Source of the DNA: Calothrix sp. NIES-4105
Lineage (GTDB): Bacteria; Cyanobacteriota; Cyanobacteriia; Cyanobacteriales; Nostocaceae
NCBI RefSeq assembly: GCF_002368415.1
Contig: NZ_AP018290.1
Location: 8,175,717-8,239,716 of the forward strand
Direction of reading: 5' to 3'
DNA length: 64,000 bases
Under the pieces are notes generated by a model. That model had not been told where the DNA came from. It was given only the letters and a program-made list of their open reading frames with translations, and did no database searches. The position numbers and the translations under genes were made by a program. This document shows, piece after piece, positions 1 through 64,000 of the stretch. The stretch's first letter is position 1. Every line of letters starts with the position of its first letter.

Positions 1-186
1 TTCTGCAGGTACAACAGCTAACAGAGCATTTTCTTGGGCTACGGCTTTTAAGGACTGTGCAATGCTAGGATAAGGACATAGAATTGCTTTTGTTGATTGT
101 GTCTTCGCAAGCCAGTTGATATAAAAAAGTGCTGCCTGTTCACTGTAGTTTCCTGGAGGACCTAGATGCGCTACCGATAAATTCAT
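1..186 (-). CDS. pheA: Prephenate dehydratase, N-terminal part (runs off window)
   Basis: Prephenate dehydratase converts prephenate to phenylpyruvate in phenylalanine synthesis. Only the first 62 codons are present; the gene continues beyond base 1. Reading the minus strand from ATG at 186 gives MNLSVAHLGPPGNYSEQAAL, the family's opening strand with the G-P-x-G-x-[FY]-[ST]-x-x-A pattern, and later CPYPSIAQSLKAVA and LAVVPAE, matching the conserved 'AVVPxENS' segment. It is divergent from the DUF1997 gene at 392, about 205 bp away. Neighbourhood with rnhB and rne is, from memory, common in filamentous cyanobacteria. Confidence is high because several family motifs fall in the right order, although no C-terminal half or regulatory ACT domain can be seen. 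Confidence 0.85.
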   Translation of the reverse strand, partial: MNLSVAHLGPPGNYSEQAALFYINWLAKTQSTKAILCPYPSIAQSLKAVAQENALLAVVPAE

Positions 187-391
187 ATTTTTCTACTTAA
201 TATTGCTTTCTTTAAGAAGAGTGAACTGTGTTTTAAAGAACAATAGTAACTTAATTATTAATTTGTATACCTTAAAGTCGATGAAAACTTAAGCAAATTG
301 CTCTTTACTATAGATAATATTTGCGTTTGAGTATTGCAAATTTTTATTGCTAAAAAATATTAAATTAGTTAAAAAGGTATTAGAACGGCTT

Positions 392-988
392 ATGGTTACT
401 AAGTTTACTGCTTCTCAATCAGTAGAAATTCCTGTTCCAGAGCAGCCTGTACCCATTGGGCATTACCTGCGTCAGCGCAGACGCTTGGTTAATGCATTGA
501 CAGACCCTAGTCGCATTCAGCAAATTTCAGACGAAGTATTTCGGCTTAGAATGCGTCCTTTAAGTTTTATGTCGCTTAGTGTTCAACCAACCGTAGACAT
601 GAGAGTATGGGCTGAATCAAATGGTACAATTAGGCTTCAGTCTATTGCTTGTGAAATTCTAGGTTTTGAGTATATTAACCAGCGCTTTGCACTCTCATTG
701 CAAGGCTTTTTAATTCCTGAACAAATTGGTACAGGTACTCGGCTTCGCGGTCGAGCCGATTTGCAAGTAGAAGTAGATTTCCCTCCGCCATTTTGCTTTA
801 CCCCTAAACCTATTTTAGAGACAACTGGTAACAGCTTATTGAAGAGTGTACTACTAACTGTTAAACAAAGATTGTTACACCAGCTACTTGCTGATTACAA
901 TGATTGGGTGAAATCAACTCAAGAAACGCTCCCAAACGTAAATACAAGCGTAAATAAAGGTGAACTACCTATATTTAATTTAGAATAA
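392..988 (+). CDS. DUF1997 family protein
   Basis: Conserved cyanobacterial and plastid protein of unknown biochemical role. The frame is open from a TTG at 347, but ATG at 392 (MVTKFTASQSVEIPV) is the better start because the extra 15 residues are low-complexity and basic. The 198-residue product has no signal peptide or membrane segment. Central conserved stretches are FRLRMRPLSFMSLSVQPTVD, then ALSLQGFLIPEQ and LRGRADLQVEVDFPPPF, and a C-terminal segment (LLKSVLLTVKQRLLHQLLADY) typical of this lipid-binding-like (START/polyketide-cyclase-like) fold. It converges with rnhB, whose stop lies only 22 bp away. Function is unknown; family assignment rests on remembered similarity. Confidence 0.75.
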   Translation: MVTKFTASQSVEIPVPEQPVPIGHYLRQRRRLVNALTDPSRIQQISDEVFRLRMRPLSFMSLSVQPTVDMRVWAESNGTIRLQSIACEILGFEYINQRFALSLQGFLIPEQIGTGTRLRGRADLQVEVDFPPPFCFTPKPILETTGNSLLKSVLLTVKQRLLHQLLADYNDWVKSTQETLPNVNTSVNKGELPIFNLE

Positions 989-1010
989 GTACAATTACAA
1001 ATGGCACGAG

Positions 1011-1679
1011 TTAGTCAAATTTTAACTCAAGCTGTAATTTAACTTGACACGGTGAGAAAGATTTGCGGTGTAAACGCGAGGCGCCATATTCCTGCAATGC
1101 AAGTAGGTGGCGCCGACTGCCGTAACCTTTATTCTGTGCTAAATCATACATTGGATATTTAGTAGCTAATCGCAGTATTAAATCATCGCGCCAAACTTTT
1201 GCAACGATGCTCGCTGCCGCAATGGCGATAGATATTGAATCACCCTTAATAATTGTTTTTTGTGGCATTGGCAAACCTTTAACCAATTGATTACCATCAA
1301 TTAAACAAATGTCAGGTTGTACTGATAGCTTCAGCACAGCCCGCTTCATTGCGAGTAAAGATGCTTGTAGTATATTAAGTTGGTCAATTTCAGCAGTTGA
1401 AGCATAACCAATTTTCCAATCGCTGCAAGCTATTATTTGCGCGAAGAGTTGCTTTCTTCTAAGCACTGACAACTTTTTACTGTCATTTATCCCAGCAGCA
1501 ACTAATTGTGGCAAAGCATTGTTCGGCAATATAACTGCGGCTGCAACCACAGGGCCAAATAAGGCGCCTCGACCTACTTCGTCAACACCCGCTTGTATAA
1601 TTTCGCACTTGCTAGATAATTCTAGCCAGCTTGATTGACTTGTAGGTAATGAGTTTGCTGTATCGAGGTGCCTTACCAT
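1011..1679 (-). CDS. rnhB: Ribonuclease HII
   Basis: Cuts the RNA strand of RNA-DNA hybrids and starts removal of misincorporated ribonucleotides. The 222-residue protein carries the RNase HII signature AGVDEVGRGALFGPVVAAAV with catalytic Asp33 and Glu34, the third acidic residue in LIDGNQ (Asp128), and the C-terminal motif KVWRDD (Asp165) followed by YPMYDLAQNKGYGSRRH, completing the D-E-D-D set. The first 25 residues are a variable extension. It lies 27 bp downstream of rne on the same strand, so the two are probably co-transcribed as rne-rnhB, an order familiar in cyanobacteria. GGCGCC lies several times inside the gene. Confidence 0.93.
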   Translation of the reverse strand: MVRHLDTANSLPTSQSSWLELSSKCEIIQAGVDEVGRGALFGPVVAAAVILPNNALPQLVAAGINDSKKLSVLRRKQLFAQIIACSDWKIGYASTAEIDQLNILQASLLAMKRAVLKLSVQPDICLIDGNQLVKGLPMPQKTIIKGDSISIAIAAASIVAKVWRDDLILRLATKYPMYDLAQNKGYGSRRHLLALQEYGASRLHRKSFSPCQVKLQLELKFD

Positions 1680-1706
1680 GTTTATTCACCCACTATTACC
1701 TATTTG

Positions 1707-3863
1707 CTAATAGTCAGAATCACCATCAGCTGCTGAAGAACGACGGCGCCTACGACGGGTAGTACCTTCCTTGACTTCATCATCTGTATAACTAGATTGC
1801 ATGTTGGGTTGTACTGGTGGTTGTACTGGTGGTGGTTGTACTGGCTGTACTGTTTGTATTGGTGGAACAACTTTCCTTGGCATCGGAGTCGGCGTAGAAG
1901 CTGGTTCTGATGCAACTTCTCCCCAAGGTTCTGGTAGGTTATCAATATTGGGGATACGCTCAACCCGCTCAGTTTTTGGTCTGGGCAAAGGTGTTGTAGA
2001 AACTGTTGGAGACGGTGGTTCGATGTCAAAGTTGGAGGTTTCTGGTGGTTGTCCAGGTAAAGTAACGTTAATAATTACTGATTTTGGATTTTTAACTTCC
2101 CTGTTAAGACGTACTAAAGGCGAAACTCCCATCAATGCGTAAACATCTTGCTCATCATCATTCATTTCCACCGATACAATCTCTGGCGGTTCGACAACTG
2201 GCTTAATTGGGTCGAGTTTTGAAATTTTACGCTCTCGTATCGGTTCCCAACTGGGTTTTGAACCCATTGTCGATGGAACAGGATTATTATCTATTTCCCC
2301 ATCTTGTTCGATGTCCATGTCTGAGTCATTTACATATGACATGGGACTTGATGTTACACGCGGTTCTGAATTTCCATTTGCTCCTGGAACACCAATTCGC
2401 TGACGGCGCCGAACACGACGTTTATCACCGATTTCATGGTAACTAGGATGGTTAACCCCTACCGAGTTATATTCTGTCTCTGGCTCAAATGATGATTCCG
2501 AAAATCCTTCATAAGTCTCTTGAGGATTGCTAGCTCTTGCTTGTGGCACTCGCTCTCGAATTGGTGTTGATGCCACAAAACGGTCGGGTACTTCCGTTGG
2601 TGCTGGTGGTGATACGCGTGGTTCGCTTTCTCCTGGTAGCTGCACGATATGCCCTAAACCACCGCAAGTTGGGCAAGTATGTCCAAATAACTCGTATACG
2701 TTTTGACCTTGGCGTTTACGTGTAAGTTCGACTAACCCCAACTCGGTTAATTGAGCGATTTGTGGACGTGCTTTGTCAGCTTTTAATGCTTTGTTAAAGT
2801 GTTCGAGAACTTGAAGCTGGTCACGCCGTGATTCCATGTCTATGAAATCAACTACAATCACACCAGCAATATTACGTAGGCGTAATTGACGAGCAATCTC
2901 GGTTGCCGCTTCGCAGTTAGTCCATAATACGGTTTCGCGCGCAGTTGCCGAGCGTGTAAACGAGCCAGAGTTAACATCTATAACAGTTAATGCTTCGGTC
3001 GGCTCGATAATAACATAGCCACCTGAAGGTAAATCAACTCTTGGTCTAAGAGCTTCTTTAATCGCTGCATTTACACGGAAGTATTCTAATATTGCAGTTC
3101 GGTCGCGATGGTGATCAATCAATAAACCTTGAGGAGTTTGACCTCCACTCCAGTTTTGTAAATACTGCTTGACTCGTTTTAATCCGGTACTCGAATCAAC
3201 TACAATTCGGTTGACATCGGCGCCGTACATATCGCGAAGTACACGCTGAATAAAATCATCATCGCGGTTAAGTAAAGCAGGAGCGCGCGTACCAACCGCT
3301 TCAACCTGAATAGCTTCCCACTGTTTTTGTAATGCTTCTAAATCTTCGATAATCGCTTCTTCTGGTTTGCCTTCGGCTTCAGTGCGAACTAACAAACCCA
3401 TTCCCGCAGGTTTGATCAAAATTGCTAACGCTCGCAATCGATTACGTTCGTTTTCGTTACGAATGCGACGCGATAAATTTACGCCTCTACCATACGGCAT
3501 CAATACTACATAACGACCAGGAAGCGTAATATTCCCTGTAAGTCGTGGTCCTTTGGTGCCTGTAGGTTCTTTCATCACCTGCACCAAAACCTTTTGCTGC
3601 GGTGTCAACAACTCAGTAATTGCTGATGCTGCACGTTTTAATCGCAGTGGACCTAAATCTGTAACGTGAATAAAACCATTTCGCTCTGGGTCACCAATAT
3701 TGACAAAAGCAGCGTCAATACCAGGTAACACATTTTCTACAACACCTAAGTAAATATCACCAATTTGGTGATGTCCTGTAGCAACAACAAGCTCTTGTAT
3801 TTGGTCTTCAGAAAAGACAGCAGCGATTTGATGCTGCTCGGCTATAATAATTTGTTTTGGCAT
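1707..3863 (-). CDS. rne: Ribonuclease E/G (cyanobacterial type)
   Basis: Endoribonuclease that starts mRNA decay and processes stable RNA. Of 718 residues, about 35-120 form the S1 RNA-binding domain (GDIYLGVVENVLPGIDAAFV), followed by the 5'-sensor and DNase I-like domains. The catalytic metal ligands are visible as Asp296 (TVIDVNSGSF) and Asp339 (VIVVDFIDME), and the Zn-link cysteines as Cys397 and Cys400 (CPTCGG). From about 410 onward the protein is a disordered Pro/Glu/Thr-rich tail ending in TTRRRRRRSSAADGDSDY. Cyanobacterial RNase E is known to end in such an arginine-rich nonapeptide that recruits polynucleotide phosphorylase. The start is ATG at 3863 with a purine-rich stretch (GAGGAAATTGA) upstream. 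Confidence 0.95.
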   Translation of the reverse strand: MPKQIIIAEQHQIAAVFSEDQIQELVVATGHHQIGDIYLGVVENVLPGIDAAFVNIGDPERNGFIHVTDLGPLRLKRAASAITELLTPQQKVLVQVMKEPTGTKGPRLTGNITLPGRYVVLMPYGRGVNLSRRIRNENERNRLRALAILIKPAGMGLLVRTEAEGKPEEAIIEDLEALQKQWEAIQVEAVGTRAPALLNRDDDFIQRVLRDMYGADVNRIVVDSSTGLKRVKQYLQNWSGGQTPQGLLIDHHRDRTAILEYFRVNAAIKEALRPRVDLPSGGYVIIEPTEALTVIDVNSGSFTRSATARETVLWTNCEAATEIARQLRLRNIAGVIVVDFIDMESRRDQLQVLEHFNKALKADKARPQIAQLTELGLVELTRKRQGQNVYELFGHTCPTCGGLGHIVQLPGESEPRVSPPAPTEVPDRFVASTPIRERVPQARASNPQETYEGFSESSFEPETEYNSVGVNHPSYHEIGDKRRVRRRQRIGVPGANGNSEPRVTSSPMSYVNDSDMDIEQDGEIDNNPVPSTMGSKPSWEPIRERKISKLDPIKPVVEPPEIVSVEMNDDEQDVYALMGVSPLVRLNREVKNPKSVIINVTLPGQPPETSNFDIEPPSPTVSTTPLPRPKTERVERIPNIDNLPEPWGEVASEPASTPTPMPRKVVPPIQTVQPVQPPPVQPPVQPNMQSSYTDDEVKEGTTRRRRRRSSAADGDSDY

Positions 3864-4651
3864 TCAATTTCCTCAAAAAAACCGCAGCACAAATTCTGGA
3901 TGTTAATCAGCCGATATACCCATACAAACACGGTCTGAACTACTTCTAATTTATACTGCGCCCATAAGCGCGTATGCGAGTTACACATTAAAGGAATTAT
4001 CCGATTGACGAACTCCACACTCCAAGAACGTAGGTCATAAAAGCGTTTATAGCGGGAAGGAGTATGGCCTTTATATTAAGAATAAACCCAGAACGGCTGA
4101 CATAAATTAAGCAATAAAAATCATTCGTCCTTTGTCAATTTTGCTACAATGCTTCATCTACATGATTTCATTCTAAAAGTTCTGCCCGTAACAGCCAAAG
4201 TTGCAAAAATCTGTTAAGCCGAAAGCTTGAGTAAAAGGCAACTGCCTGATTTACTCTACTCTAACAAACTGTAATAGAGTCTGCACTTCGAGTTGCGCTC
4301 TCATATCTGTAAGGCGCCGTAACTTCGACTGCTTTAAAAAAGATATAGCTAGAGATTTCTGACGGAGCGATGAAACAATAACTGATTCGCAGATCGCGGA
4401 AAGGGAGGAAGAGTGTTTTTGTCTACACAACTAAAGTCACAGGATAAACTCCTAGAAACGACACTCCAAGGTAATATAACTTTACTGCCCTAATTATCAG
4501 GGTAACGAATCAGCAGTTAGAACATGCAGCGCCAGAAATTTCCTCTTCATATCATTCTAACGCAACCTTGTCAAAAATCAATTCTTTCAAATTAATTTGG
4601 GCATGAATAAATTTATTGCTGCGCGAAGAACACATGCTGTGGACACTGCAT
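3864..4651 (-). promoter_or_regulatory. Long upstream region of rne, probable 5' leader
   Basis: 788 bp without a convincing gene separate the radical SAM gene from rne, both on the minus strand. Cyanobacterial rne mRNAs are known to have long 5' leaders through which RNase E limits its own expression. The part next to rne is U-rich when read as RNA (for example the stretch before the start codon), as expected for an RNase E-cleaved leader. I see no clear terminator after the radical SAM gene, so read-through is possible. Leader length and promoter position cannot be fixed by eye. Confidence 0.45.
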
Positions 4652-7231
4652 TTATTGCAAACCTATACCAAGACGATGGATATGGAGCAATTGATAATCA
4701 CCAGGCATCACAGTCGAGAGCATAAGCAGAATATGTTCAGGACGCAGCAGCATACCATCGTTACGACAACTACCAACATACCGTAATGTGGCAACATGAT
4801 TGTCGTCGCTTTGATCAACTAGTTCTAAATCTAACAAACGTGAGCGTAAATCAATTTGTTGGTGTTTGCCTGACTTGGTTATCTGTTCGCACCAAATTTC
4901 TGTTTGGTTTTTGATTGATGAGAGCGCTTCGTGCCAAAGAATGGGAGTTCCTGGTTCTGTTGCTACAGTAATTAAGTACTCAGCGGTTTGTAATTGGGCA
5001 GCAGCAGCAGGCGCCTTCAAATCGATTTCAACGACTTTATATATAGGTATATCGCTAGGCAGAACCGAAGTCAGCTTGATTTTAAAATCTTCAACATCAA
5101 CAGGTTGTGTCAATTCAAAATCCACAATTTCACCATTGCTAGTGGCGCCTAATGGTAAAGCGCTGGCAAGAGAAATTCGAGGGTTGGGATGATAACCACC
5201 TGTAAATGAGACTGGCAAACTTGCCCTTCGCACCACACGGTCAAAAAGACGCATCAAATCCAAATGGCTGACTAATGCCATATCCCCAGTTTTGCCAAAC
5301 CAAACGCGTAAACGTTGGGTTTTATTTGTGTTAGGCACAAATTCTCCATCAAAAGGAGGGCATTGGGCGGGTGTGATTACTATATTATGACCGAAGTCAG
5401 TGCTGCAAACACCGCAGTGCGAACATTCTGCAAACGAACAGTCAGCAATTGTAGCAGCTTCTAACGCACGTTGTAAATCCTCAACTAACCATTTTTTGTC
5501 AATCCCACTATCAATATGATCCCAAGGTAAAGCAATATCAAGAAATGTATTTAAATTTTCACATTCCATTACATTCCATTCACCGTTTTCGACTTGGCGA
5601 TACTTCCAAGACAAATTTGATAAAGCAATAGCTTGACTCCATGCATTAAACGCGCGCTCGATATTGTCATACCACGAATCCATCCCGGCGCCTAGTTCCC
5701 ATGCTCTTTTCAAAACTTTACCTAAGCTACGATCTCCTCTACCAATAAAATCTTCCATAGCAGAGAGGCGAACATCAGTATAATTTACCTTGACGCCGCG
5801 TAAAGAGCGGAATTCTACACGTAAAAGTCTTTGCTTACGCTCAAATTCAGCTTTTGCAACTGAATGCCACTGAAATGGAGTATGAGGTTTGGGAGTGAAG
5901 TTAGAAATTGTAATGTTAAAGTTGAGCGGTTTTCTACCTTTGCCTCGGCACTCGCGTTGTAACCAAGCTACAGTTTCAACAATACCAACAACATCCGCGT
6001 CGGTTTCGCCTGGTAAGCCAATCATAAAATAAAGCTTAATTTTATCCCAGCCTTTTTCCCAAGCTGTCTTAACACCGCGTAGAAGTTCTTCGTTGGTTAG
6101 ACCTTTGTTGACAATATCGCGCATTCGCTGGGTTCCAGCTTCTGGAGCAAAAGTTAAACCACTTTGCCGTGTTCCACCCAGTATATTAGCAATATTTTCA
6201 TCAAACCTGTCTACCCGTTGACTTGGTAATGAAAGCGAGATATTTTCACCTTTTAAGCGATTTTTGATTTCCATCCCGACGGAGGGCAGGGATAAATAAT
6301 CTGAACAGCTTAATGATAGTAGAGAAAATTCATTATAACCGGTGAAGCGCATTCCTTTCTCAATCGCTTCTACTACCTTTGATGGTTCGACATCGCGCGC
6401 GGGACGGGTAAGCATTCCTGGTTGACAAAATCGACATCCCCTTGTACAGCCACGACGAATTTCGATTGTCAAACGGTCATGGACAGTTTGAACGTAGGGC
6501 ACAAGTCCGACTGAATAAGCGGGAATGGGGGTGGCAACTCGGCGTAAGATTCGTTCGGGTACATCTGAACTTTTGGGACGAACCGATCCGTCAGCAGCTT
6601 GCTCATAAAATCTGGGTACGTATACACCGGGTATTTGAGCAAGGTCTAGTAATAATTCTTCACGATTCAAACAAGCCGCTTTACCTTCTTCCAAAACCAT
6701 ACCAATTTCAGGGAGGAGTTCTTCGCCATCGCCAAGGGCAATAAAATCTAAGAAGTCCGTGTATGGTTCAGGGTTCGATGTTGCGGTTTGTCCACCAGCA
6801 AAAATTAAGGGGTAATTTCCGTTGTCGCGCTCACTTGAAGTCAGGGGTATTCCTGCCAAGTCAAGCATTTCTAAAATATTAGTCGCACCTAGTTCGTAAC
6901 TAAGGCTAAAACCAAGGATATCAAAATCAACAAGCGACCGTTTAGACTCGACAGCAAATAACGGCGTTTTAGATGAGCGCAGTTTTGCTGCTAAGTCTGG
7001 TGCGGGTAAGTACGCACGGTCGCACAATTGACGTGGTTGGGCGTTCAAAATGTTGTATAGGATAATGTGTCCTAAATTTGATGCCCCAACTTCATAGATT
7101 TCTGGATAGGTGAGTACCCAACGGACATTGGCACTTTGCCAAGGTTTGTGTACTGCTCCCAACTCGTTACCGAGGTATCGTGCTGGTTTGAGAATATCCG
7201 ACGTTATTAATTCTTGTACTGCGAAAGCCAC
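4652..7231 (-). CDS. TIGR03960-type radical SAM protein fused to DUF2344 domain
   Basis: 859-residue iron-sulfur protein of unknown substrate. Residues about 30-230 resemble the B12-binding-like N-terminal domain of TIGR03960 (YPEIYEVGASNLGH, LGFSLSYELGATNILEMLDL). The radical SAM core follows, with its [4Fe-4S] ligands in RRGCTRGCRFCQPGM (Cys262, Cys266, Cys269). From about 640 onward comes a DUF2344/TIGR03936 domain (VSHLDLMRLFDRVVRRA, GYHPNPRISLASALPLG), which in other bacteria is a separate gene. A four-cysteine segment near 610-630 (CSFAECSHCGVCSTD) could hold a second cluster. The gene lies upstream of rne on the same strand, an arrangement that suggests a link to RNA or ribosome metabolism; that link is inference. 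Confidence 0.88.
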   Translation of the reverse strand: MAFAVQELITSDILKPARYLGNELGAVHKPWQSANVRWVLTYPEIYEVGASNLGHIILYNILNAQPRQLCDRAYLPAPDLAAKLRSSKTPLFAVESKRSLVDFDILGFSLSYELGATNILEMLDLAGIPLTSSERDNGNYPLIFAGGQTATSNPEPYTDFLDFIALGDGEELLPEIGMVLEEGKAACLNREELLLDLAQIPGVYVPRFYEQAADGSVRPKSSDVPERILRRVATPIPAYSVGLVPYVQTVHDRLTIEIRRGCTRGCRFCQPGMLTRPARDVEPSKVVEAIEKGMRFTGYNEFSLLSLSCSDYLSLPSVGMEIKNRLKGENISLSLPSQRVDRFDENIANILGGTRQSGLTFAPEAGTQRMRDIVNKGLTNEELLRGVKTAWEKGWDKIKLYFMIGLPGETDADVVGIVETVAWLQRECRGKGRKPLNFNITISNFTPKPHTPFQWHSVAKAEFERKQRLLRVEFRSLRGVKVNYTDVRLSAMEDFIGRGDRSLGKVLKRAWELGAGMDSWYDNIERAFNAWSQAIALSNLSWKYRQVENGEWNVMECENLNTFLDIALPWDHIDSGIDKKWLVEDLQRALEAATIADCSFAECSHCGVCSTDFGHNIVITPAQCPPFDGEFVPNTNKTQRLRVWFGKTGDMALVSHLDLMRLFDRVVRRASLPVSFTGGYHPNPRISLASALPLGATSNGEIVDFELTQPVDVEDFKIKLTSVLPSDIPIYKVVEIDLKAPAAAAQLQTAEYLITVATEPGTPILWHEALSSIKNQTEIWCEQITKSGKHQQIDLRSRLLDLELVDQSDDNHVATLRYVGSCRNDGMLLRPEHILLMLSTVMPGDYQLLHIHRLGIGLQ

Positions 7232-7393
7232 GTTATGCTATCTTTTACGTACTTTAATATACAGCTATACCACCTCCAACATAGCATTTATTAGGGTTAT
7301 CGAGATATCTCACAATCCTACTTACACTGGTTGGTGTTATTTGGTGCAGTATTGCTGCATTGGGCAAGAGTGTTTACTTCATCCTACAGGGAA

Positions 7394-7723
7394 TTACACG
7401 CTTGTCAATGCAGTTTCGTCTGCCAATATCTCAAATACACCATCAAGTTGAGTTAATTCAAAAATAATACGCAATGCGGGGGATACACAGCAGATGCTGA
7501 ATCGCTTATTGGTGGCTTGTGCGAGCTTGAGAGCGGAAACTAAAGCCATCAACCCTGCGCTATCCATCGATTCAACTGATGCTAGGTTAACTAGCATGGT
7601 GCCATTATCGTCTTGTCTTAAAGCTGTTGTTAAATCGCGCTCAAACTCTAAAGCGTTAGCTGCATTCAAATTACCTTGAGGACGAATTACGGTCAATTTT
7701 GGATGACTAAGTACTGCTTGCAT
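7394..7723 (-). CDS. STAS-domain anti-sigma factor antagonist-like protein
   Basis: 109-residue single STAS domain of the SpoIIAA/RsbV type. Such proteins bind a partner-switching kinase and are inactivated by phosphorylation. The sequence opens with KLTVIRPQGNLNAANALEFE and has VESMDSAGLMALVSALKLA; the Ser of MDSAG (Ser55) sits at the usual phosphorylation site. The C-terminus (LRIIFELTQLDGVFEILAD) matches the last helix and strand of the domain. No anti-sigma kinase or PP2C phosphatase lies nearby, so partners must be encoded elsewhere. It is separated by 162 bp from the downstream radical SAM gene and probably has its own promoter. Confidence 0.85.
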   Translation of the reverse strand: MQAVLSHPKLTVIRPQGNLNAANALEFERDLTTALRQDDNGTMLVNLASVESMDSAGLMALVSALKLAQATNKRFSICCVSPALRIIFELTQLDGVFEILADETALTSV

Positions 7724-8034
7724 ATTTACTTCCTAATTACCTATTTAAAGTAATCAAACTTCTATGATAGATGTATTTGACCATAAACCTTTTCTCATGA
7801 CATCGACCATTCGTATTACATCTCTTTGCTGAATCTTTATTGATCTAGCCATCTCGCTTAAAGATTACCAAAACTTGAAAAATTTCTGTGCTTAAATATA
7901 CTTTTATCAGTTAAATATTAATTTATTTATATACAGTCGCATTGATTTACCTGGGCTTAACCTTAATTTAATAGCGTATACAATCGAGGATTAGTTATGA
8001 TGAACAAACAATTTATGCTTGTTTTACATAGCTT

Positions 8035-8050
8035 TGAGAAGCGCTTCTCA
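8035..8050. promoter_or_regulatory. Perfect 16-bp palindrome
   Basis: TGAGAAGCGCTTCTCA reads the same on both strands and lies about 200 bp upstream of the small gene at 8250. It could be an operator for a dimeric regulator. Nothing else in the window matches it, and no regulator can be named. Confidence 0.3.
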
Positions 8051-8152
8051 ATCCATTAATATAGAGCATTTATGTCTCAGGGTAGATGAGCATTTAGTGA
8101 AATAACCATACCAGATGATGGCATACAACTTCAAAATAAGCAACATAGTAGC

Positions 8153-8168
8153 TGTGATTCAAATCACG
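8153..8168 (+). promoter_or_regulatory. CRP-like binding site
   Basis: TGTGATTCAAATCACG fits the CRP-family consensus TGTGA-N6-TCACA with one mismatch in the final base. It is 82 bp upstream of the ATG at 8250, a usual activator distance. Filamentous cyanobacteria have cAMP-receptor-type regulators (AnCrpA, SYCRP1) with this specificity; binding here is inference. Confidence 0.35.
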
Positions 8169-8249
8169 AATGAACATACACCTCCATCACTTTTTATACA
8201 AAACTATGTCTGAGATAATAACTAGTATTAAAATTAGGTTTGTAAAAAA

Positions 8250-8444
8250 ATGAAAACAAAATACGCAATTCGGCAACTAGTCGAGAAAGCTTTGAACATT
8301 CAAAAACTAACTCCAGAGATAGAGAATGAGATTAACTACGAGTTAACCGAGATGGGTTATATTTCCGATGTAGACTACGAAGCATTGGAATTGCTTATGG
8401 CTGAGATGGACGCAGGTCGAGTTAAGCTAGTCGCAAGCTACTAA
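8250..8444 (+). CDS. Small acidic conserved cyanobacterial protein (64 aa)
   Basis: Hypothetical 64-residue protein, apparently all helical, with a charged core: ALNIQKLTPEIENEINYEL, then DVDYEALELLMAEMDAGRV. No signal peptide, cysteines or membrane segment. I recall similar small proteins across filamentous cyanobacteria but know no function. It starts at ATG 8250. A CRP-like site lies 82 bp upstream and a strong terminator hairpin 80 bp downstream, so it is most likely a single-gene transcript. Confidence 0.65.
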   Translation: MKTKYAIRQLVEKALNIQKLTPEIENEINYELTEMGYISDVDYEALELLMAEMDAGRVKLVASY

Positions 8445-8524
8445 ATCGGTATATTTTTCTCCAAGCAAAGCTTATGTTTGGTTATGTAGTAAGTCAAATT
8501 TCTTATGCTGAGTTCAAAAAAACG

Positions 8525-8558
8525 AAACCCCTCACCCAAAGTCGTGAGGGGTTTTCAA
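8525..8558. terminator. Intrinsic terminator, probably bidirectional
   Basis: An 11-bp perfect stem (AAACCCCTCAC with GTGAGGGGTTT) around an 8-nt loop, with a short T run on the plus strand and A/T-rich flanks on both sides. It lies between convergent genes ending at 8444 (+) and 8605 (-). Confidence 0.8.
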
Positions 8559-8573
8559 TTATTAAAATATTAA

Positions 8574-8612
8574 CTTAGGTTGGGTGAAGGCTTTGCTCCA
8601 CCCACTACACGC
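8574..8612. repeat. Short dispersed repeat of the TAGGTTGGGTG family
   Basis: TTAGGTTGGGTGAAGGCTTT followed by GCTCCACCCA forms a short inverted repeat. A related sequence (GTAGGTTGGGTGGAGG with GGAACCCAAC) occurs at 61932-61966. The repeat runs into the 3' end of the gene that stops at 8605. Confidence 0.5.
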
Positions 8613-8943
8613 TCCCTTGAACCCAAAGCTTTTGGATAAAATTATGAAGTTGTTGCTTTGCTGTAATGGAAGACAGCTCCTCAAGATGTGCGAAATCGCT
8701 AAAAAATGGAATTACCTCAACTTCCATTGCAGGTTGAAATAAATTTATTGACCAGAGTAAATCGGAACTAGAGCGTAAATCAGTTATTTTATGAGGTTCT
8801 ATTGACTTGTCGGCAAGGAATAGCGGACGTACCCAGCACAACTGACGCTCTTTAACAACTTGAATAAGTTCAGTGTATAAACGCTCAGTACCGCATTCCA
8901 AAAATAAAATTTGTCTTGGTTTAAAATCTAGGCTTTTATCCAT
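8605..8943 (-). CDS. Conserved cyanobacterial hypothetical protein (112 aa)
   Basis: Soluble 112-residue protein with no motif I can name. It opens MDKSLDFKPRQILFLECGTE and contains RLYTELIQVVKERQLCWVRP and FLADKSIEPHKITDLRSSSD, then a helical C-terminus ending QKLWVQGSV. The opening resembles a small beta-rich nucleotide- or RNA-associated domain, but this is only an impression. Its stop lies beside a repeat of the TAGGTTGGGTG family (8576-8610), so the last codons may have been shaped by that repeat. It is divergent from clpS. I recall similar genes in other filamentous cyanobacteria. Confidence 0.6.
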   Translation of the reverse strand: MDKSLDFKPRQILFLECGTERLYTELIQVVKERQLCWVRPLFLADKSIEPHKITDLRSSSDLLWSINLFQPAMEVEVIPFFSDFAHLEELSSITAKQQLHNFIQKLWVQGSV

Positions 8944-9127
8944 ATCTACCTAGCGACACAGACCAAACAGATATAATTATATCAATAAATATCAGCCAAT
9001 AGTGGTAATAATTGTAGTCGAGTGCGAGTATTCGCTTTGAGTCCAAGCTAAAATGGATAAATAAGTGTTAAGATTTCACCTAGCAGCGTCCACGATTGTA
9101 GTATTTGAATAACCATAGCATAGAACT

Positions 9128-9409
9128 GTGTCTGTAGAAACCATTGAAAAAACTTCAACAACCCGAAAGCTGGCGCCTCGATACCGCGTCTTGCTTCATA
9201 ACGACGATTTCAACTCAATGGAACATGTAGTGCAATCGCTCATAACTACAGTACCGAGTCTTACACAACCGCAGGCTGTTAGCATAATGATGGAAGCACA
9301 TACCAACGGTCTTGCTTTGGTCATTACCTGTGCGCTGGAACATGCTGAGTTTTATAGCGAAACCCTTAAAGGTCACGGGTTAACTAGCACTATTGAGCCA
9401 GATGAGTAA
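9128..9409 (+). CDS. clpS: ATP-dependent Clp protease adaptor ClpS
   Basis: Adaptor that delivers N-end-rule substrates to the ClpC/ClpP protease. The 93-residue protein has a short disordered N-terminus (MSVETIEKTSTTRKLAPRY) and the ClpS core: RVLLHNDDFNSMEHVV, the substrate-pocket region, and IMMEAHTNGLALVITCALEH, then AEFYSETLKGHGL. These match the conserved 'NDDxTPMEFV', 'MxxVHxxG' and 'AExYxxxLxxxGL' positions. The start is GTG at 9128; no in-frame ATG precedes the core. A CPBP-protease gene follows only 2-47 bp downstream depending on its start, so the two are probably one operon. Confidence 0.92.
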   Translation: MSVETIEKTSTTRKLAPRYRVLLHNDDFNSMEHVVQSLITTVPSLTQPQAVSIMMEAHTNGLALVITCALEHAEFYSETLKGHGLTSTIEPDE

Positions 9410-9412
9410 TTA

Positions 9413-9440
9413 TGGGACAGCCTGGTCCGGCTGTTCCACA
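9413..9440. repeat. Small palindromic repeat at the 5' end of the CPBP gene
   Basis: GGACAGCC and GGCTGTTCC form a near-perfect hairpin, followed by the tail CACAAGA. It belongs to the same family as the copies at 11586-11630, 12012-12040 and, inside chlD, 56312-56341. It lies between the clpS stop and the likely CPBP start. Confidence 0.6.
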
Positions 9441-9456
9441 AGATTGGCTAGTTTGT

Positions 9457-10272
9457 ATGAAATTTGACATAAGTTGGTTAGCTCAGTATCCAGCCCCAGT
9501 GCGAATTATTGGGTTTTTAGTTTGTTTAGCAATAGTCTGGCTACCTGTTGCGGCGCCAATATACTTACTTATACGCGATGCTAATTTAGTCACAATTTTA
9601 ACAATGGGACTATTAGCAATCGAATTTTTTATATTTCTGCCGTATTGGGGTAAAGTAGTTCATCACCAACCAAGAATATATAAGCATGTAGGTTTAGAGT
9701 TTTCCAAAAAAAATAGCTTTGAACTGTTGCGGGGTTTAGCGATAGGGTTGATAAGCATTGAGTTATTATTTATTGTTCAAGGATTATTCGGTTGGTTAGA
9801 GTGGCGCCAAGCTAACTCTGGAGTATTAAGATTTATTATCGAAGCCATACCTACAGCTATTGGAACTGCCCTTGCTGAAGAATTATTCTTTCGCGGCTTT
9901 TTATACGATGAATTAGAACGCGACTATAAACCGAACGCAGTACTTTGGGCAGTAGCAATAATTTTTCCTGTATCGCACTTTATAAAACCGATACCAGAGA
10001 TAATTCGTACTTCCCCACAATTTTTTGGCTTATTGCTCCTGGCATTAATTTGTATATGGGCAAAGCGCAGTTGTAACGGACGTTTAGGTTTACCCATTGG
10101 TATTCATGCCGGGTTAATTTGGGGATGGTACGTTGTTAATGTCGGTCAATTAATTAAATATACAGGCGCCGTTCCAGTTTGGGTGACAGGTGTAAATGAT
10201 AATCCCTTAGCAGGCATAATAGGATTAACGTTCTTATCAGTATTAGCCCTAAGAATGCGCCAAAGATTGTAG
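9457..10272 (+). CDS. CPBP family intramembrane metalloprotease
   Basis: Membrane protease of the CAAX-prenyl/Abi (CPBP) family; substrates unknown. The frame is open from ATG at 9412, but residues 1-15 of that version come from a dispersed palindromic repeat, so ATG 9457 (MKFDISWLAQYPAPVRIIGF) is preferred, giving 271 residues. About seven hydrophobic segments are visible. The catalytic motif EELFFRGFLYDELERD supplies Glu141, Glu142 and Arg146; the second motif is the histidine in SHFIKP and the third HAGLIWGW. It follows clpS closely. The stop codon (TTGTAGCACGG) falls at the edge of another repeat, so the natural C-terminus could have been altered. Confidence 0.85.
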   Translation: MKFDISWLAQYPAPVRIIGFLVCLAIVWLPVAAPIYLLIRDANLVTILTMGLLAIEFFIFLPYWGKVVHHQPRIYKHVGLEFSKKNSFELLRGLAIGLISIELLFIVQGLFGWLEWRQANSGVLRFIIEAIPTAIGTALAEELFFRGFLYDELERDYKPNAVLWAVAIIFPVSHFIKPIPEIIRTSPQFFGLLLLALICIWAKRSCNGRLGLPIGIHAGLIWGWYVVNVGQLIKYTGAVPVWVTGVNDNPLAGIIGLTFLSVLALRMRQRL

Positions 10273-10386
10273 CACGGCTGTCCCGCCTGTGCAGTAAGGG
10301 TAATTATTTTTACCACGCCCGTCACAGAGGGCACAGAGGAAAGAGAATTTAACCACAAAGACACAAAGGACACAAAGAAAGAGTTA
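10264..10386. repeat. Dispersed repeats: palindrome at a stop codon plus CACAAAGG-type repeat
   Basis: A palindrome-like unit (GTAGCACGGCTGTCCCGCC, then TGTGC) overlaps the stop of the CPBP gene. It is followed by two runs of the CACAGAG/CACAAAGG repeat (CGTCACAGAGGGCACAGAGG; AACCACAAAGACACAAAGGA). The same CACAAAGG motif recurs near 14840, 22718, 58165 and 62820, and a CACAGAGACGCAG variant near 56700 and 62030. Confidence 0.65.
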
Positions 10387-10394
10387 AGAAGAGA

Positions 10395-11486
10395 TTACAA
10401 AGGATTACGGATAAAACCACATTTACCGCTAATACAAACATTTGCGACACCTTCAGAAAAGCGACGAACTTCATCGAACTGTGGTTCAATGACTATTTGA
10501 CCGCTTTTATTTATATAACCCCATTTGGCGCCGACTTTAACTTGAGCTAATCCTTCACTAAAAGCTGTGGCATCTTCAAATGTTGGTTCTATGATAATTT
10601 TGCCTTCACGGTTTATATAACCATATTTATCGCCAACTTTGACTTTTGCTAAATCATCTCTAAACTCAGTGGCACCATCAAATTTAGCAGCAATTACAAA
10701 TTTACCTTGTTTGTTGATAAACCCGTATTTTTCACCCATCTTTACAGGTGTTAGTTCATCACGAAAGAAATTTGCTTCATCAAACTGCGGTTGAATCACA
10801 AATTTACCGCTTTTATTGATAAATCCCCATTTACCACCAGATTTTACTGCCGCTAATCCATTTTTGAACAAAAAGGCGCCTTCAAACTGCGCGGGAATTG
10901 CAAATTGACCCTGTTTATTTATATAACCGTATTTTTCACCTAACTTGATAGCTGCCAAACCCGACTCAAACCCAGAGGTAACTTCATCAAACTGCGGTTG
11001 AATGACAATTTTACCTTGCCGATTAATAAATCCGTACTTATCGCCAATTTTTACAGACACAAGTCCATCACTAAAGAAATCAGGCTCCTCAAGCTGGGGT
11101 AAAATCCTAAATCTACCTTCTCTATTTATATAACCCCACTTGGAATCTAACTTTACTGCTGCCAAACCCTCAGAAAAATCTAAAACCTCATCGAAATTGG
11201 CTTGAATAACGAGTCTACCGCTTTTGTTAATAAAACCGTACTTCTTACCAATACGAACAGGCGCCAAACCTTCTGAAAACTGCGAACCGTTGTAGAATCT
11301 TGCTGGTATCCGGTAACGGGGAATTTTTCTACCTTGGTCTTGCGCTTTTGTCTCGAATGAAATGGGGGTATTAGCAAATGTAGGTGATAAGGTTGTCAGG
11401 GGAACACTAGCAGCAATAAATCCTGTAACCCCTAGCTCAAATAGTTTAAGTAGTATTTGCTTGTAAAAAAGTGCCATGATATACAT
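10395..11486 (-). CDS. Secreted WG-repeat protein
   Basis: 363-residue protein with an N-terminal hydrophobic segment (FELGVTGFIAASVPLTTLSP, about residues 16-35) and a likely signal-peptidase site near ANT, so probably exported. The rest is a regular array of eight WG/YG repeats of about 38 residues, each with a core such as KYGFINKQGKFVI or KWGYINKSGQIVI and ending FDEA.FF..L..VK, plus a partial ninth (GKCGFIRNPL). WG repeats form beta structures used for protein or ligand binding; no catalytic domain is attached. ATG at 11486 or 11477 are both possible starts. The regularity suggests repeat-by-repeat expansion. Confidence 0.85.
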   Translation of the reverse strand: MYIMALFYKQILLKLFELGVTGFIAASVPLTTLSPTFANTPISFETKAQDQGRKIPRYRIPARFYNGSQFSEGLAPVRIGKKYGFINKSGRLVIQANFDEVLDFSEGLAAVKLDSKWGYINREGRFRILPQLEEPDFFSDGLVSVKIGDKYGFINRQGKIVIQPQFDEVTSGFESGLAAIKLGEKYGYINKQGQFAIPAQFEGAFLFKNGLAAVKSGGKWGFINKSGKFVIQPQFDEANFFRDELTPVKMGEKYGFINKQGKFVIAAKFDGATEFRDDLAKVKVGDKYGYINREGKIIIEPTFEDATAFSEGLAQVKVGAKWGYINKSGQIVIEPQFDEVRRFSEGVANVCISGKCGFIRNPL

Positions 11487-11585
11487 TTATTAAATATGTA
11501 CATCCAGATTGGCACAGGGTTAGGCTAGATTAGCTGAGTAATATTGCGTATAAATAATTGTAATATATTTATCTTTGTAAATTAA

Positions 11586-11630
11586 GTTTCTTGTGGAGCT
11601 TGTGGAGCTTGTGGAGCAGGCGTCCTCGCC
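11586..11630. repeat. Palindromic repeat with triplicated GTGGAGCTT tail
   Basis: GTGGAGCTT occurs twice and GTGGAGCAG once in tandem, leading into the hairpin GCAGGCG-tcct-CGCCTGC. It is a member of the same small-repeat family as the copies at 9413, 12012 and 56312. Confidence 0.6.
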
Positions 11631-11657
11631 TGCCGAATTTATTTAAGATGAGGCGCC

Positions 11658-11885
11658 TTAAAGGTCTTGTTGTGGAAAGTTAGCCCATTCCTCAGCGCGC
11701 GCTGCATCGATTTCTATTGCCGATGGCGCCTGTCCTAGAGGGGCACATAACCCCCATAATGATTTACGAGGCAAAGGCTTATCTACTAATTCAAGCTTTA
11801 TATCAGCAGCAAGTTGACGAATCAAACGTAATTTATCTACAGTTGAAAGCTGTTTAGCTAAATTTATAATTTCCTGTAAAGTCAT
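11658..11885 (-). CDS. Antitoxin-like small protein, no toxin beside it
   Basis: 75-residue protein starting MTLQEIINLAKQLSTVDKLR, then LIRQLAADIKLEL, and ending AARAEEWANFPQQDL. I recall this pattern (helical N-terminus, a short linker with 'RKSLWG', and a C-terminus ending NFPxxDL) as a common cyanobacterial small protein encoded upstream of PIN-domain toxins. Here nothing like a toxin follows: the next 50 bp are repeat sequence, then the WG-repeat gene. It may be an orphan antitoxin or a pair that lost its toxin. Function is inferred from remembered context only. Confidence 0.55.
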   Translation of the reverse strand: MTLQEIINLAKQLSTVDKLRLIRQLAADIKLELVDKPLPRKSLWGLCAPLGQAPSAIEIDAARAEEWANFPQQDL

Positions 11886-12011
11886 AATTTAATGCCTTGT
11901 TTAAATGATTAATAATTTAATTAAAATTATCTGAATTGTTTTCAAGGAGGCACAAAGGGTTGGTTTTTAATTTCTGCCATAGTACTTATATTAAAACAAC
12001 TGGCATTTTAG

Positions 12012-12100
12012 GAACGGGCAAGGATGCCCATTCCACAAGATAGCTCTATTCCACAAGATAGGTTTATTTTACAAGATAGATTTATTACACAAGGCAAATT
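12012..12100. repeat. Palindromic repeat with four 18-bp tandem copies
   Basis: GAACGGGCAAGGATGCCCAT is a hairpin (GGGCA/TGCCC) of the dispersed family. It is followed from 12030 by four 18-bp tandem units, ATTCCACAAGATAGCTCT and variants, starting at 12030, 12048, 12066 and 12084. The array ends just past the stop codon of the pentapeptide gene on the other strand. Confidence 0.65.
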
Positions 12101-12103
12101 AGT

Positions 12104-12736
12104 TTATTTTTGGGCTAATGTACCGGTCAGGCAGGCTTTATCTAGGTTGGCGCCATTTAAATTGGTGCCTTCTAGTTCGGCACATAGTAGGTTTGCTCCG
12201 GTTAGGTTTGCTCCTGATAGGTTTGCTCCGCGTAGGTCTGCTTCTTCGAGGTTGGCTTCACTTAAGTTGGCACCTTGTAAATCTGCACGGCTTACGTCTG
12301 CACCTTTAAGGTTGGCGCCTGTAAGGTTTACACCACGCAAATCTGCACCACGTAGGTCTACACCCTGGAGATTGACGTTCATTAAGTTGGCGCCACTTAA
12401 AAATGCTCCTGCAAGTGATACATCGCTGAGTCTGGCACTCATTAGATTTGCACCGCGTAAATTACTGCCGCGTAAATCAGCACCAGTTAAATCGGCTTGC
12501 ATTAAATTGGCGCCCATTAAGTTCGCCCGTAAGTCGGTTTGCTTTAAGTTGGCGCCCATTAAATTAGCACCTTCTAAATGCCCACCTTCGAGTTTAGAGT
12601 TTTGAAAATTAACTCCTACTAAGGTGGCGCCCATTAAAGAAATACGGGTTAAATCTAGACTCGATAAATCCTCGTCTTCTAAATCGCTACCAGGTAAGTT
12701 TTTGAGTGTGCCGTTACGGATTGCTTCAATATTCAT
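12104..12736 (-). CDS. Pentapeptide-repeat protein
   Basis: 210-residue protein made almost wholly of A(D/N)LxG-type pentapeptides (GANLMGANLKQTDLRANLMG and so on), which fold as a right-handed square beta-helix. The N-terminus MNIEAIRNGTLKNLPGSDLE is a common capping sequence. Strikingly often 'GAN' is encoded with GGCGCC, giving at least six copies of that hexamer inside the gene. No signal peptide or membrane anchor. Role unknown; such proteins are abundant in filamentous cyanobacteria. It is 23 bp downstream of the DICT-HD gene on the same strand and could be co-transcribed with it. Confidence 0.85.
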   Translation of the reverse strand: MNIEAIRNGTLKNLPGSDLEDEDLSSLDLTRISLMGATLVGVNFQNSKLEGGHLEGANLMGANLKQTDLRANLMGANLMQADLTGADLRGSNLRGANLMSARLSDVSLAGAFLSGANLMNVNLQGVDLRGADLRGVNLTGANLKGADVSRADLQGANLSEANLEEADLRGANLSGANLTGANLLCAELEGTNLNGANLDKACLTGTLAQK

Positions 12737-12759
12737 TTGCTATTTAATTGATTTGCGAT

Positions 12760-14142: not shown

Positions 14143-14457
14143 GGTGGTAATAAAAGTAACCTTACTTCGCGCCAGGGGTGTATATCAATAATATAAACGC
14201 TCTTTATCAACAAAACAATTTTTTCTAATGACCAAGACTTATAACCAGACTTTGGCCATATTATTCTATGAAGCAACCTACTAAAGACGTAACTTTTACG
14301 AATGATTTAAGACCGCTATCGTTAAAACATTCTAATTGGAATATCATCTATGACAACAAACAAGCGCCAAAGTTTATGAGTATTCATAATCAAACGCGCA
14401 GCAAAAATAAGCCAAATACCAGACTACATGCGTTAAAGAGGTAAGTGAGTATATCGA
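14143..14457. other. Intergenic, no recognised feature
   Basis: About 315 bp of AT-rich sequence upstream of the DICT-HD gene. I see no gene, strong hairpin or known repeat here; it should contain the promoter of that gene. Confidence 0.4.
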
Positions 14458-14646
14458 CTATTTACTGATAAACCTTTCTACTTCTACTGAACCATCGTTA
14501 AAGAATTCTATTTCCCATCGTTGTCCGGGAATAGCTGCCATCACCATTATCGCTTCTTCTCGGTGATGAGCTAATGTGTAATGTATTTTATATCTTTCCA
14601 ACTGATTAATAAAATTTGTTAGCTTTATAAATCCATTGCTACTCAT
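14458..14646 (-). CDS. Small conserved cyanobacterial protein (62 aa)
   Basis: 62-residue protein with an N-terminal helix (GFIKLTNFINQLERYKIHYT) and a beta-rich C-terminus (AIMVMAAIPGQRWEIEFFND, then GSVEVERFISK). I recall the ending 'VAVPGERWEVEFxxDGSVExErF' in many cyanobacterial small proteins, often near toxin-antitoxin or Rhs-type genes, but no function is established. Here it stands alone, with a repeat element just upstream. ATG at 14646 is the natural start. Confidence 0.6.
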   Translation of the reverse strand: MSSNGFIKLTNFINQLERYKIHYTLAHHREEAIMVMAAIPGQRWEIEFFNDGSVEVERFISK

Positions 14647-62417: not shown

Positions 62418-62488
62418 GGTTTTTCCTTAAAATTTATTAATACTGTAGGCGAGATTATCGATATATAGGAGACTAGAAGAAGGAAACA

Positions 62489-62728
62489 CTAGCCTTCCCA
62501 TGATGCACGTTCTTCTTGGAGTTGTCTATCTATATCCTCAGCAGTTCGAGAAGCGTGTCTCTTGCGACTTTCTTCTATAATGTCTAGTACAGAACGCTTT
62601 TTGGTTTCTGCTTTTTCTGGCAAAACAACAAATACATCTACACTATCGCCAATTTGAGCTTCTGGAACTTGAATTTCTATTTTGTTTCCTGGTAAAACTT
62701 TGGTTGTAATATGTAAAGCTGGTTGCAC
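62489..62728 (-). CDS. Antitoxin-like protein (79 aa), copy 2
   Basis: Paralogue of the gene at 62178: MQPALHITTKVLPGNKIEIQ, VPEAQIGDSVDVFVVLPEKA, then a diverged C-terminus SRTAEDIDRQLQEERASWEG. The start is GTG 62728 (CGTG after GAGGAAAAAGC). Its stop overlaps a possible GTG start at 62489 by one base (TAGTG), from which MFPSSSLLYIDNLAYSINKF is read before a stop at about 62430; this may be a toxin stub. The region upstream of both copies (CTATATATCGATARTCTC) is shared, so the promoter was duplicated too. Confidence 0.65.
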   Translation of the reverse strand: MQPALHITTKVLPGNKIEIQVPEAQIGDSVDVFVVLPEKAETKKRSVLDIIEESRKRHASRTAEDIDRQLQEERASWEG

Positions 62729-62775
62729 GGCTTTTTCCTCAATATATCTTAATACGCTAGGTGAGACTATCGATA

Positions 62776-62901
62776 TATAGCATCTCCCATTGATTTGTAA
62801 AAAATAATGTTGATGTAACGAACCACAAAGGACACAAAGGACACAAAGGAAGGAAAGAAAGAAGAGAATAAAAATATTACAAATGATTTGAAACTGCTAT
62901 A
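62776..62901. repeat. MITE, TATAGCA-ended, copy 2
   Basis: 126 bp between TATAGCA (62776) and TGCTATA (62895-62901). Inverted ends extend to ATTTGTAA about 18 bp inside each terminus. The interior (ATGTAACGAACCACAAAGGA, CACAAAGG repeats, GAAAGAAGAGAA) matches copy 1 at 58123. Its right end provides the TAG stop of the truncated methyltransferase. Confidence 0.8.
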
Positions 62902-63580
62902 TGAGACTAGAAGAAGGAAATGCTAGCTGTCCCAAACGGTTAAACAGCTTTTGGGTAAATAACCGTTTAGTTTCAGAATCAATTGCTCCTTTAATTAAAC
63001 TTTCTACTTTCTCAAAGGTTTTACGATATTCTCTAAAAAATTCCTGAGTGACAGCTTCAACATCAAACGCTTCATCATGGCGTGCTTGAATATCTAAAGG
63101 TGATGCATTAGGAATTTTTTCTAAGTCCAACAAACTTATTCTTTCTGTTGCAGTGCGTAGTTGTTCACCTTCCCCTACGGTAATGCGGCGAAATAATCTT
63201 CGTTTTTGGGGCGAACTATCGTACTTGACATTTAGAAAGTGCCAACGTGATTGAGTGTTATTGGAAAATACGAACAAAGCATATGGATGTTCTTGCAAAA
63301 GGTGATTAACTACTACTCTTTCGCTTTGTCTAGATAAATTTTCTGATTTGAGACGAGTATAAATTACATGGAAAGCTTTATTGGCGCCTCCAGAAGCTAA
63401 TAACAAAGGTTCACCTTCAACTTCACCCTTGACTGCATCGCTTAATGTTCTGCTAGAAAGTTCTTTGTTTTCGCGCTCGTAATTTAACTGACTCCAAAAT
63501 AGTTTTTTAAGTGCTTCGATATTTTTTAATTTATGGAGCGAAGATTTTATCGATTCTTGTAGTTCTAGTGCGACTGCCAT
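62897..63580 (-). pseudogene. Truncated N-terminus of a large restriction-type DNA methyltransferase
   Basis: 227 codons: MAVALELQESIKSSLHKLKN and on to LLDLEKIPNASPLDIQARHD, FDVEAVTQEFFREYRKTFEK, ETKRLFTQKLFNRL. I recall these as the N-terminal region of PglX/Eco57I-like type IIG methyltransferases of about 1000 or more residues, in which 'LFNRLMFIxFxQKKG' continues into the methylase domain. Here the match stops at FNRL and the last residues, GQLAFPSSSLI, come from the antitoxin junction and MITE. The catalytic NPPY-type motif is absent, so the protein cannot methylate. Confidence 0.75.
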
Positions 63581-64000
63581 ATATATAAACCCTGTTTACG
63601 TGATGTGTTGTCCTCAAAACGCGCGCTTTCATGCCTGCAATGCTCAAATGCAGTAATTATTAATAATTCAAAGCAGCACGGATGCGGCGCCAGTCAGATA
63701 AAACTGCTGTGCTTATGTCGTTAAAATTTTTGGTAAAATTTAAATTGTAGGGTGGAGACGTGATTAATCACGTCTCTACATTAATAGGCATTATTTCATA
63801 GCAAAATAAAGCATATTCCACAGAGGAAAATGCATTTATATGTATTACAAAGGTTTAAAGATAATAGTGCTTATAGCATTAAACACGTATCCGCGTTACA
63901 AGTGTCGTTTTCAAGCCCTGATAAACGTTGTCTCTATGAGATGTAACCTTTACCTGATTTGAACTCAGTATAATTGTCTACACAGTTAAATGTAAGGTAT
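63581..64000. other. Non-coding end of window with one palindromic repeat
   Basis: About 420 bp without a supported gene. It includes the GTGGAGACGTGATT/AATCACGTCTCTAC palindrome at 63752-63779. The upstream promoter of the truncated methyltransferase must lie near 63590-63650. Anything starting beyond 64000 is not visible. Confidence 0.45.
63752..63779. repeat. GTGGAGACG palindromic repeat
   Basis: GTGGAGACGTGATT followed by AATCACGTCTCTAC, one mismatch from a perfect 28-bp palindrome; almost identical to the copy at 54535. Confidence 0.7.

Follow-up and report, generated by a model that had tools for sequence, protein, structure and literature searches.

GGCGCC is the alternate highly iterated palindrome of a genus-level Calothrix-like clade and has a HindV-type methyltransferase as its candidate partner

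The classical cyanobacterial highly iterated palindrome (HIP), the octamer HIP1 (GCGATCGC), is a dispersed word found about once per kb and tied to the solitary methyltransferases DmtA (GATC) and DmtC (CGATCG) (PMC4390886). The same work identified an alternate HIP, GGCGCC, in Calothrix PCC 7103 and in D253 fragments, reported two GRCGYC methyltransferases and a broken gene for the CGATCG enzyme, proposed GmeC-dependent mismatch repair, and considered a second methylase copy perhaps critical (PMC4390886). It also presents exceptional HIPs as sporadic, outside clades, and non-persistent (PMC4390886). GGCGCC as a HIP and the idea of a partner methylase and repair behind it are already known from this one strain, PCC 7103 (PMC4390886); we found no other paper that joins Calothrix and GGCGCC, and no later one on GGCGCC as a HIP by title or abstract opening. 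Enzymes of the HindV/BsaHI type recognize GRCGYC, M.BsaHI methylates the central C, and a TL motif has been described (PMC2413257); the Haemophilus influenzae Rd entry in a methylation-motif table is likewise GRCGYC (PMC8565308). In this study, we examined GGCGCC in a stretch of 64,000 nucleotides of Calothrix sp. NIES-4105 (here called the window; the genome, coded G000, comprises 12.04 Mb in 8 contigs, of which 4.5% was read) and in related genomes.

As in PCC 7103 and D253, the iterated word is GGCGCC, HIP1 is lost, GATC and CGATCG are strongly depleted, and GRCGYC-type 5-methylcytosine (m5C) methyltransferases are found (PMC4390886). The present case differs in that it concerns another genome of the clade, that the trait is old and occurs in all seven sampled members of the genus, that in two of these a single detected methylase suffices, and that CGCGCG is also iterated. 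Compared with the HIP1 system, both the word and the enzyme are others. New here are the lasting swap across the sampled genus, the HindV-type enzyme without a detected restriction partner, and the footprint of deamination.

Counting revealed 99 dispersed copies of GGCGCC across the window (positions 1 to 64000, no strand assigned), i.e., about 1.5 per kb at a GC content of 39.9%, whereas base composition would predict 4.05 copies and dinucleotide frequencies 6.3. This agrees with the first-pass annotation of this DNA, which had arrived at about 99 copies in coding and intergenic DNA by hand, with roughly five expected by chance. A maximum-order Markov model gives a higher expectation of 42.5, this model being built from the sub-words of GGCGCC itself. 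HIP1 is missing from the window, as had been noticed before, and so is CGATCG (6 to 9 expected), while GATC occurs 27 times versus 154 to 230 expected. The whole genome contains 18,131 copies of GGCGCC but only 7 of the reversed word CCGCGG. In a 382-kb sample of G000, made up of the window, 13 methylase neighborhoods, seven 20-kb stretches chosen by coordinate, and 40 kb to the left of the window, 588 copies were counted versus 34.4 (first-order) or 31.4 (second-order) expected, corresponding to observed-to-expected ratios of 17.1 when dinucleotides and 18.7 when trinucleotides serve as the background. By the second-order ratio, GGCGCC ranks first among all 4,096 hexamers, while the remaining methylatable words GACGCC (0.22) and GACGTC (0.06) are depleted in the same sample. 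The word is thus far from its Markov expectation, and HIP1 is not common elsewhere in the genome either, where its 125 copies amount to no over-representation.

The distribution of the sites was followed in a 264-kb stretch that includes the window, using simple calls of open reading frames (ORFs) of at least 100 amino acids. Of 388 sites, 340 lie inside ORFs, with 191, 62, and 87 in the three codon phases (0, 1, and 2), and 48 lie outside, at 0.80 to 0.83 per kb in DNA of 35% GC. Spacing is near random (coefficient of variation, 1.10), and the 30-mers around the 388 sites all differ from each other, so that no single repeat accounts for the sites. GGCGCC therefore shows what characterizes a HIP, namely a genome-wide Markov excess and dispersal in coding and non-coding DNA without a longer repeat; a methyltransferase predicted by homology to modify the word is also present, as described below.

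To place the trait, 192 genomes of the family from 56 genera were compared, sampled evenly from a larger group that may contain additional members of the genus. Seven genomes belong to the genus: G000, G030, G076, G101, G115 (Calothrix PCC 7103), G127 (Dulcicalothrix desertica PCC 7102), and G138 (Calothrix PCC 7716). All seven are rich in GGCGCC, with 7,475 to 20,380 copies each (1,150 to 1,711 per Mb), and hold only 31 to 163 copies of HIP1. The remaining 185 genomes contain 0 to 1,053 copies of GGCGCC, and the genome with the maximum (G089) also has 1,270 copies of the reversed word. In a first syntenic set of about 57 kb, five members are 94 to 97% identical to each other (93 to 95% in a longer syntenic set), G000 is 85 to 86% identical to them, and G101 79 to 80%, which places the origin of the trait before 20% divergence. 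A clade at the genus level, which includes Calothrix PCC 7103, Calothrix PCC 7716, and D. desertica PCC 7102, hence has GGCGCC as its alternate HIP. Its presence in seven of seven sampled genomes contradicts the published view of alternate HIPs as sporadic and non-persistent, and removes the argument that they do not last in clades. Elsewhere in the family, four genomes combine low HIP1 counts with no iteration of GGCGCC (G022, 535; G082, 30; G083, 990; G154, 574) and are candidates for further alternate HIPs.

A search for cytosine-5 methyltransferases (PF00145) gave 17 matches in G000, some of which are fragments of a single gene. Clustering across the seven genomes yielded two m5C methylases present in all of them, one of which is of the HindV type. 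G000 carries three HindV-type copies (L012, L017, and L014) that are 55%, 53%, and 51.5% identical, respectively, to an annotated HindV methylase adjoining a HindVP endonuclease; L014 is also 54% identical to a methylase next to a HindVP-family endonuclease in Citrobacter. Each of the six other genus genomes encodes an orthologue of L012 with 80 to 90% identity and the PCQ and ENV motifs. L012 itself also has these catalytic motifs of the HindV/BsaHI type. In the target recognition domain, the three G000 copies have a TL motif whose flanks are conserved, and this region is nearly identical to that of two plasmid HindV-type enzymes (YYYRHPR-Y-RRAIFSIDEP-PT-RGVNRP). It is kept in the seven L012 orthologues, four of which (G030, G115, G127, and G138) have TIRS in place of TIRG, i.e., RSVNRP for RGVNRP; the exact string IGNAVP near the C terminus was not found in the G076 orthologue. 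Less specific searches were of little help: a PDB search with L014 returned general m5C methyltransferases with M.HaeIII as the best match, and an NCBIfam scan of ten methylases gave no specificity.

Judged from this homology, a HindV-type methyltransferase is well supported as the partner of GGCGCC. The first-pass annotation had suggested looking for a solitary methyltransferase recognizing GGCGCC, and the candidate found in this way would have the broader specificity GRCGYC. Most likely, the L012-type enzyme methylates the central C (GGmCGCC), the position that Elhai's model requires and that was called unknown there (PMC4390886). In G101 and G127, a single methylase match each was obtained at E ≤ 1e-40 although both genomes have the HIP, indicating that a second copy is not needed for its maintenance. 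Near the chromosomal HindV-type methylase, an ORF for a BrnT-type toxin was noted (L012:4090-4389), and near the methylase on contig C2 lies a weaker match to a Cas12f1-like TNB domain in a TnpB-like ORF (L014:2674-4206).

The second m5C methylase common to all seven genomes (in G000 C1:9023922-9024995; L021:4908-6023) has as neighbors ORFs that by sight resemble deoC and recO. It was considered as a CGATCG enzyme and ruled out, its relatives on three plasmids adjoining enzymes of the Cfr10I/Bse634I type; a DmtD-like enzyme with the specificity RCCGGY is likely. A further methylase (L022:5179-6360) is present in six of the seven genomes, and plasmids of Calothrix PCC 7716, PCC 6303, and Halomonas carry relatives of it together with an Eco29kI-family endonuclease as partner. 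Eco29kI cuts CCGCGG, the word that is nearly absent from G000.

No RE_HindVP endonuclease was detected in any of the seven genus genomes, and eight scanned ORFs near the three G000 methylase copies contained no endonuclease domain. The search of G000 alone was uninformative because it lacked a control match; the negative became informative when the same search gave matches in 11 of 17 methylase-bearing outgroup genomes. These 17 had been picked with their GGCGCC counts already known (11 with ≤7 sites, 6 with ≥71) and constitute a case-control comparison rather than a survey. RE_HindVP was found in 10 of the 11 genomes with few sites versus one of the six with many (Fisher's exact test, P = 0.005), four of the 11 matches being flawed by internal stops (G154, G020) or split (G019, G160). 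Outside the genus, 51 of 185 family genomes match L014 at E ≤ 1e-40, and their median GGCGCC count, entered by hand for this comparison, is 6 versus 25 in the 134 genomes without a match (Mann-Whitney test, P = 5e-4, uncorrected for kinship). GGCGCC is thus mostly avoided where the endonuclease is detected, not iterated where the methylase alone is found, and iterated in this genus only. The clade shares with HindV/BsaHI restriction-modification systems a related methyltransferase with a nearly equal TL region, whereas the endonuclease is undetected and the sites are enriched instead of avoided.

We followed the turnover of sites in colinear stretches of up to 264 kb aligned to each reference, to which the window contributes positions 1 to 18106 (no strand assigned), colinear with the six other genus genomes in an alignment that runs past both ends of this portion. 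Terminal branches of the tree measure 0.032 to 0.037 in the ingroup of five, 0.089 for G000, and 0.21 for G101; outgroup loci of the L132 region were left out of the polarization of gains, their well-aligned part holding by estimate too few GGCGCC. On the five ingroup terminal branches, 531 sites were kept, 54 were lost, and none was gained (one, in G138, under a relaxed rule). Other all-G/C hexamers on the same branches showed 675 kept, 86 lost, and 37 gained, and all hexamers except GGCGCC 11,788 losses and 11,842 gains summed over the five genomes, these controls being overlapping and non-independent words. Of the 54 losses, 39 led to GGTGCC or GGCACC. The central C of GGCGCC changed to T in 39 of 1,122 cases, about twice as often as in GCG elsewhere (87 of 5,012; P = 6e-4) and more often than all other C (1,152 of 120,355; P = 2e-11), while the outer positions changed in 6 of 931 and 7 of 1,122 cases. 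This excess is a 5-methylcytosine-like footprint, as predicted by methylation of the central C.

Over longer distances, the sites are retained better than comparable words. In the 57-kb set, 86% of 43 GGCGCC sites of G101 are kept in G138, compared to 29% of 166 other G/C hexamers and 30% of all hexamers, and 80% of 89 sites of G000 are kept in G127 versus 38 to 49% of controls. Where a Gly-Ala pair is constant at the amino acid level, GGCGCC is kept in 26 of 27 cases from G101 to G138 (other synonymous pairs, 15 of 64) and in 101 of 115 from G000 to G127 (59 of 114). This excess over synonymous controls indicates that deaminated sites are restored or purged. A two-state fit with free root for GGCGCC versus GGTGCC/GGCACC gave a loss rate of 0.98 and a return rate of 18.2, compared to 0.74 and 0.30 in other NNCGNN contexts, which again are overlapping and non-independent words. 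Rates from these fits are rough, because several rows ended at limiting values (a root frequency of 0 or 1, or rates of 0 or several hundred). A return rate held at 0.6, the value of a GGC/GGT control, lowers the log likelihood by 19.6 units in phase 0, in which the change is synonymous. Constant GGTGCC/GGCACC sites number 1, versus 120 over 15 comparable GC-flanked contexts (8 each). A high return rate is also expected if deleterious losses are purged, so that these data do not separate restoration from selection. Among the results running the other way, G101 retains just 39 to 42% of the sites of G127, G000, and G115 (all hexamers, 31 to 32%), because it has fewer sites.

A second iterated word was found in the window with 48 copies of CGCGCG and 37 of GCGCGC (1 to 64000, no strand assigned, by counting with overlaps possible); the first-pass annotation had remarked on GCGCGC, and CGCGCG is the stronger of the two. 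CGCGCG occurs 8,759 times in G000. The other six members of the genus have 3,257 to 5,058 copies each and five outgroup genomes 12 to 127, some counts stemming from tandem repeats, such as four copies spaced 63 bases apart in G127. The five ingroup terminal branches show 44 sites kept, 12 lost, and none gained. At positions with agreement within the ingroup, G000 shares with it 15 of 52 CGCGCG sites versus 133 of 147 GGCGCC sites (P = 6e-17). This contrast shows GGCGCC to be old and CGCGCG in G000 to be largely young, or else lost in the ingroup. No enzyme for CGCGCG was found among the relatives of five methylases, whose listed matches bore no telling name, or in the four neighborhoods inspected.

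On balance, we think it probable that GGCGCC is a genus-level alternate HIP served by a solitary HindV/BsaHI-type methylase and maintained by a methylation-linked bias favoring the methylated word. The enzyme would mark the central C in vivo, deamination would steadily convert GGCGCC to GGTGCC, and over longer times sites would be kept or regained, amounting to a bias toward GGmCGCC. Such a bias would most likely stem from methylation-dependent mismatch repair or gene conversion, along the lines of Elhai's GmeC model; weak selection for the sites is the main rival. The alternatives raised in the first-pass annotation, a different partner methyltransferase or a repair bias, have accordingly fared differently: homology argues for the methyltransferase, whereas the repair bias fits the substitution data, with which purifying selection is also compatible. 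Several results weigh against our preferred account. New sites are not visibly being made at present, given the 54 losses without a strict gain; an excess of losses over gains is also seen for other all-G/C hexamers. On short branches, retention is below that of all hexamers (G127 to G115, 75% versus 81%; G127 to G076, 72% versus 80%), and the synonymous test in phase 2 loses just 0.40 log-likelihood units and needs no high return rate. Moreover, five outgroup genomes with the methylase and no detected endonuclease have only 71 to 277 sites (G021, G070, G112, G183, and G062), and a sixth, G045, has 3, implying that an orphan enzyme alone is not sufficient. The specificity of the enzyme, finally, rests on homology.

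Purifying selection for the sites, for example as repair, recombination, or nucleoid anchors, would remove deaminated copies without any repair bias, and we see in it a real possibility, if not the one we favor. Slow purging would also give recent losses alongside high long-term retention, and would account for the single constant GGTGCC/GGCACC site where about 8 are expected; it would, however, demand a selectable benefit from each of some 18,000 sites, which occur in all codon phases and in intergenic DNA. We know of no functional effect of GGCGCC sites. A 2018 study has reportedly dealt with selection acting on HIP1. The replication-fork ratchet in Elhai's original form, in which GmeC-directed mismatch repair, probably triggered by a second copy of the methylase, keeps creating GGCGCC from one-off words up to about one per kb, seems doubtful to us. 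In its favor, site densities in the seven genomes lie close to the proposed set point or exceed it somewhat, and GACGCC and GACGTC are depleted in G000. Yet no strict recent gain is seen in five lineages, most G000 sites are common to the agreeing ingroup, G101 and G127 keep the HIP with one methylase match each, and the GmeC nicking enzyme is hypothetical (PMC4390886). We consider it unlikely that the HIP is a self-perpetuating methylation mark, with deaminated, unmethylated GGTGCC copies overwritten from GGmCGCC by methyl-directed gene conversion between polyploid chromosome copies and CGCGCG as a second word at an earlier stage; if true, a word marked by an orphan methyltransferase would build up and persist as a result. 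A Dcm/Vsr-like system, in which G:T mismatches at GGTGCC undergo very-short-patch repair, is very improbable as the driver of the excess. The dominant change is indeed C/T at the presumed methylated position, but such repair would be expected to lower C-to-T losses, whereas they are raised, and Vsr (PF03852) was found in none of the seven genus genomes by a search that gave matches in 5 of 14 controls, E. coli among them. That GGCGCC simply reflects codon usage or base composition has next to no probability: phase 0 (Gly-Ala) is the commonest phase, but the excess over di- and trinucleotides and the density outside ORFs led us to reject it, as did the Gly-Ala pairs of G127, written 210 times as GGCGCC, 4 times as GGCGCA, and 3 times as GGCGCT. 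Why one palindrome fills cyanobacterial genomes becomes accessible in a clade that has exchanged both the word and its presumed enzyme, where deamination and return of individual sites can be traced from species to species and repair bias, gene conversion, and selection are directly testable.

Several other palindromes have a count of zero in the 382-kb sample, namely TGCGCA (92 expected), GCATGC (87), GTGCAC (68), CCATGG, GAGCTC, CGTACG, and GTCGAC; TGCGCA occurs twice in the 264-kb stretch. These missing words suggest many restriction systems, present or past. The window also contains a TnpB-like ORF with a Cas12f1-like TNB domain at 18149-19975 on the minus strand. On the plus strand, an ORF for a photosystem II reaction-centre protein (Photo_RC, Pfam PF00124) at 37799-38911 and one of a photosystem II family (PF00421) at 38868-40280 together form a predicted photosynthesis locus at 37799 to 40280.

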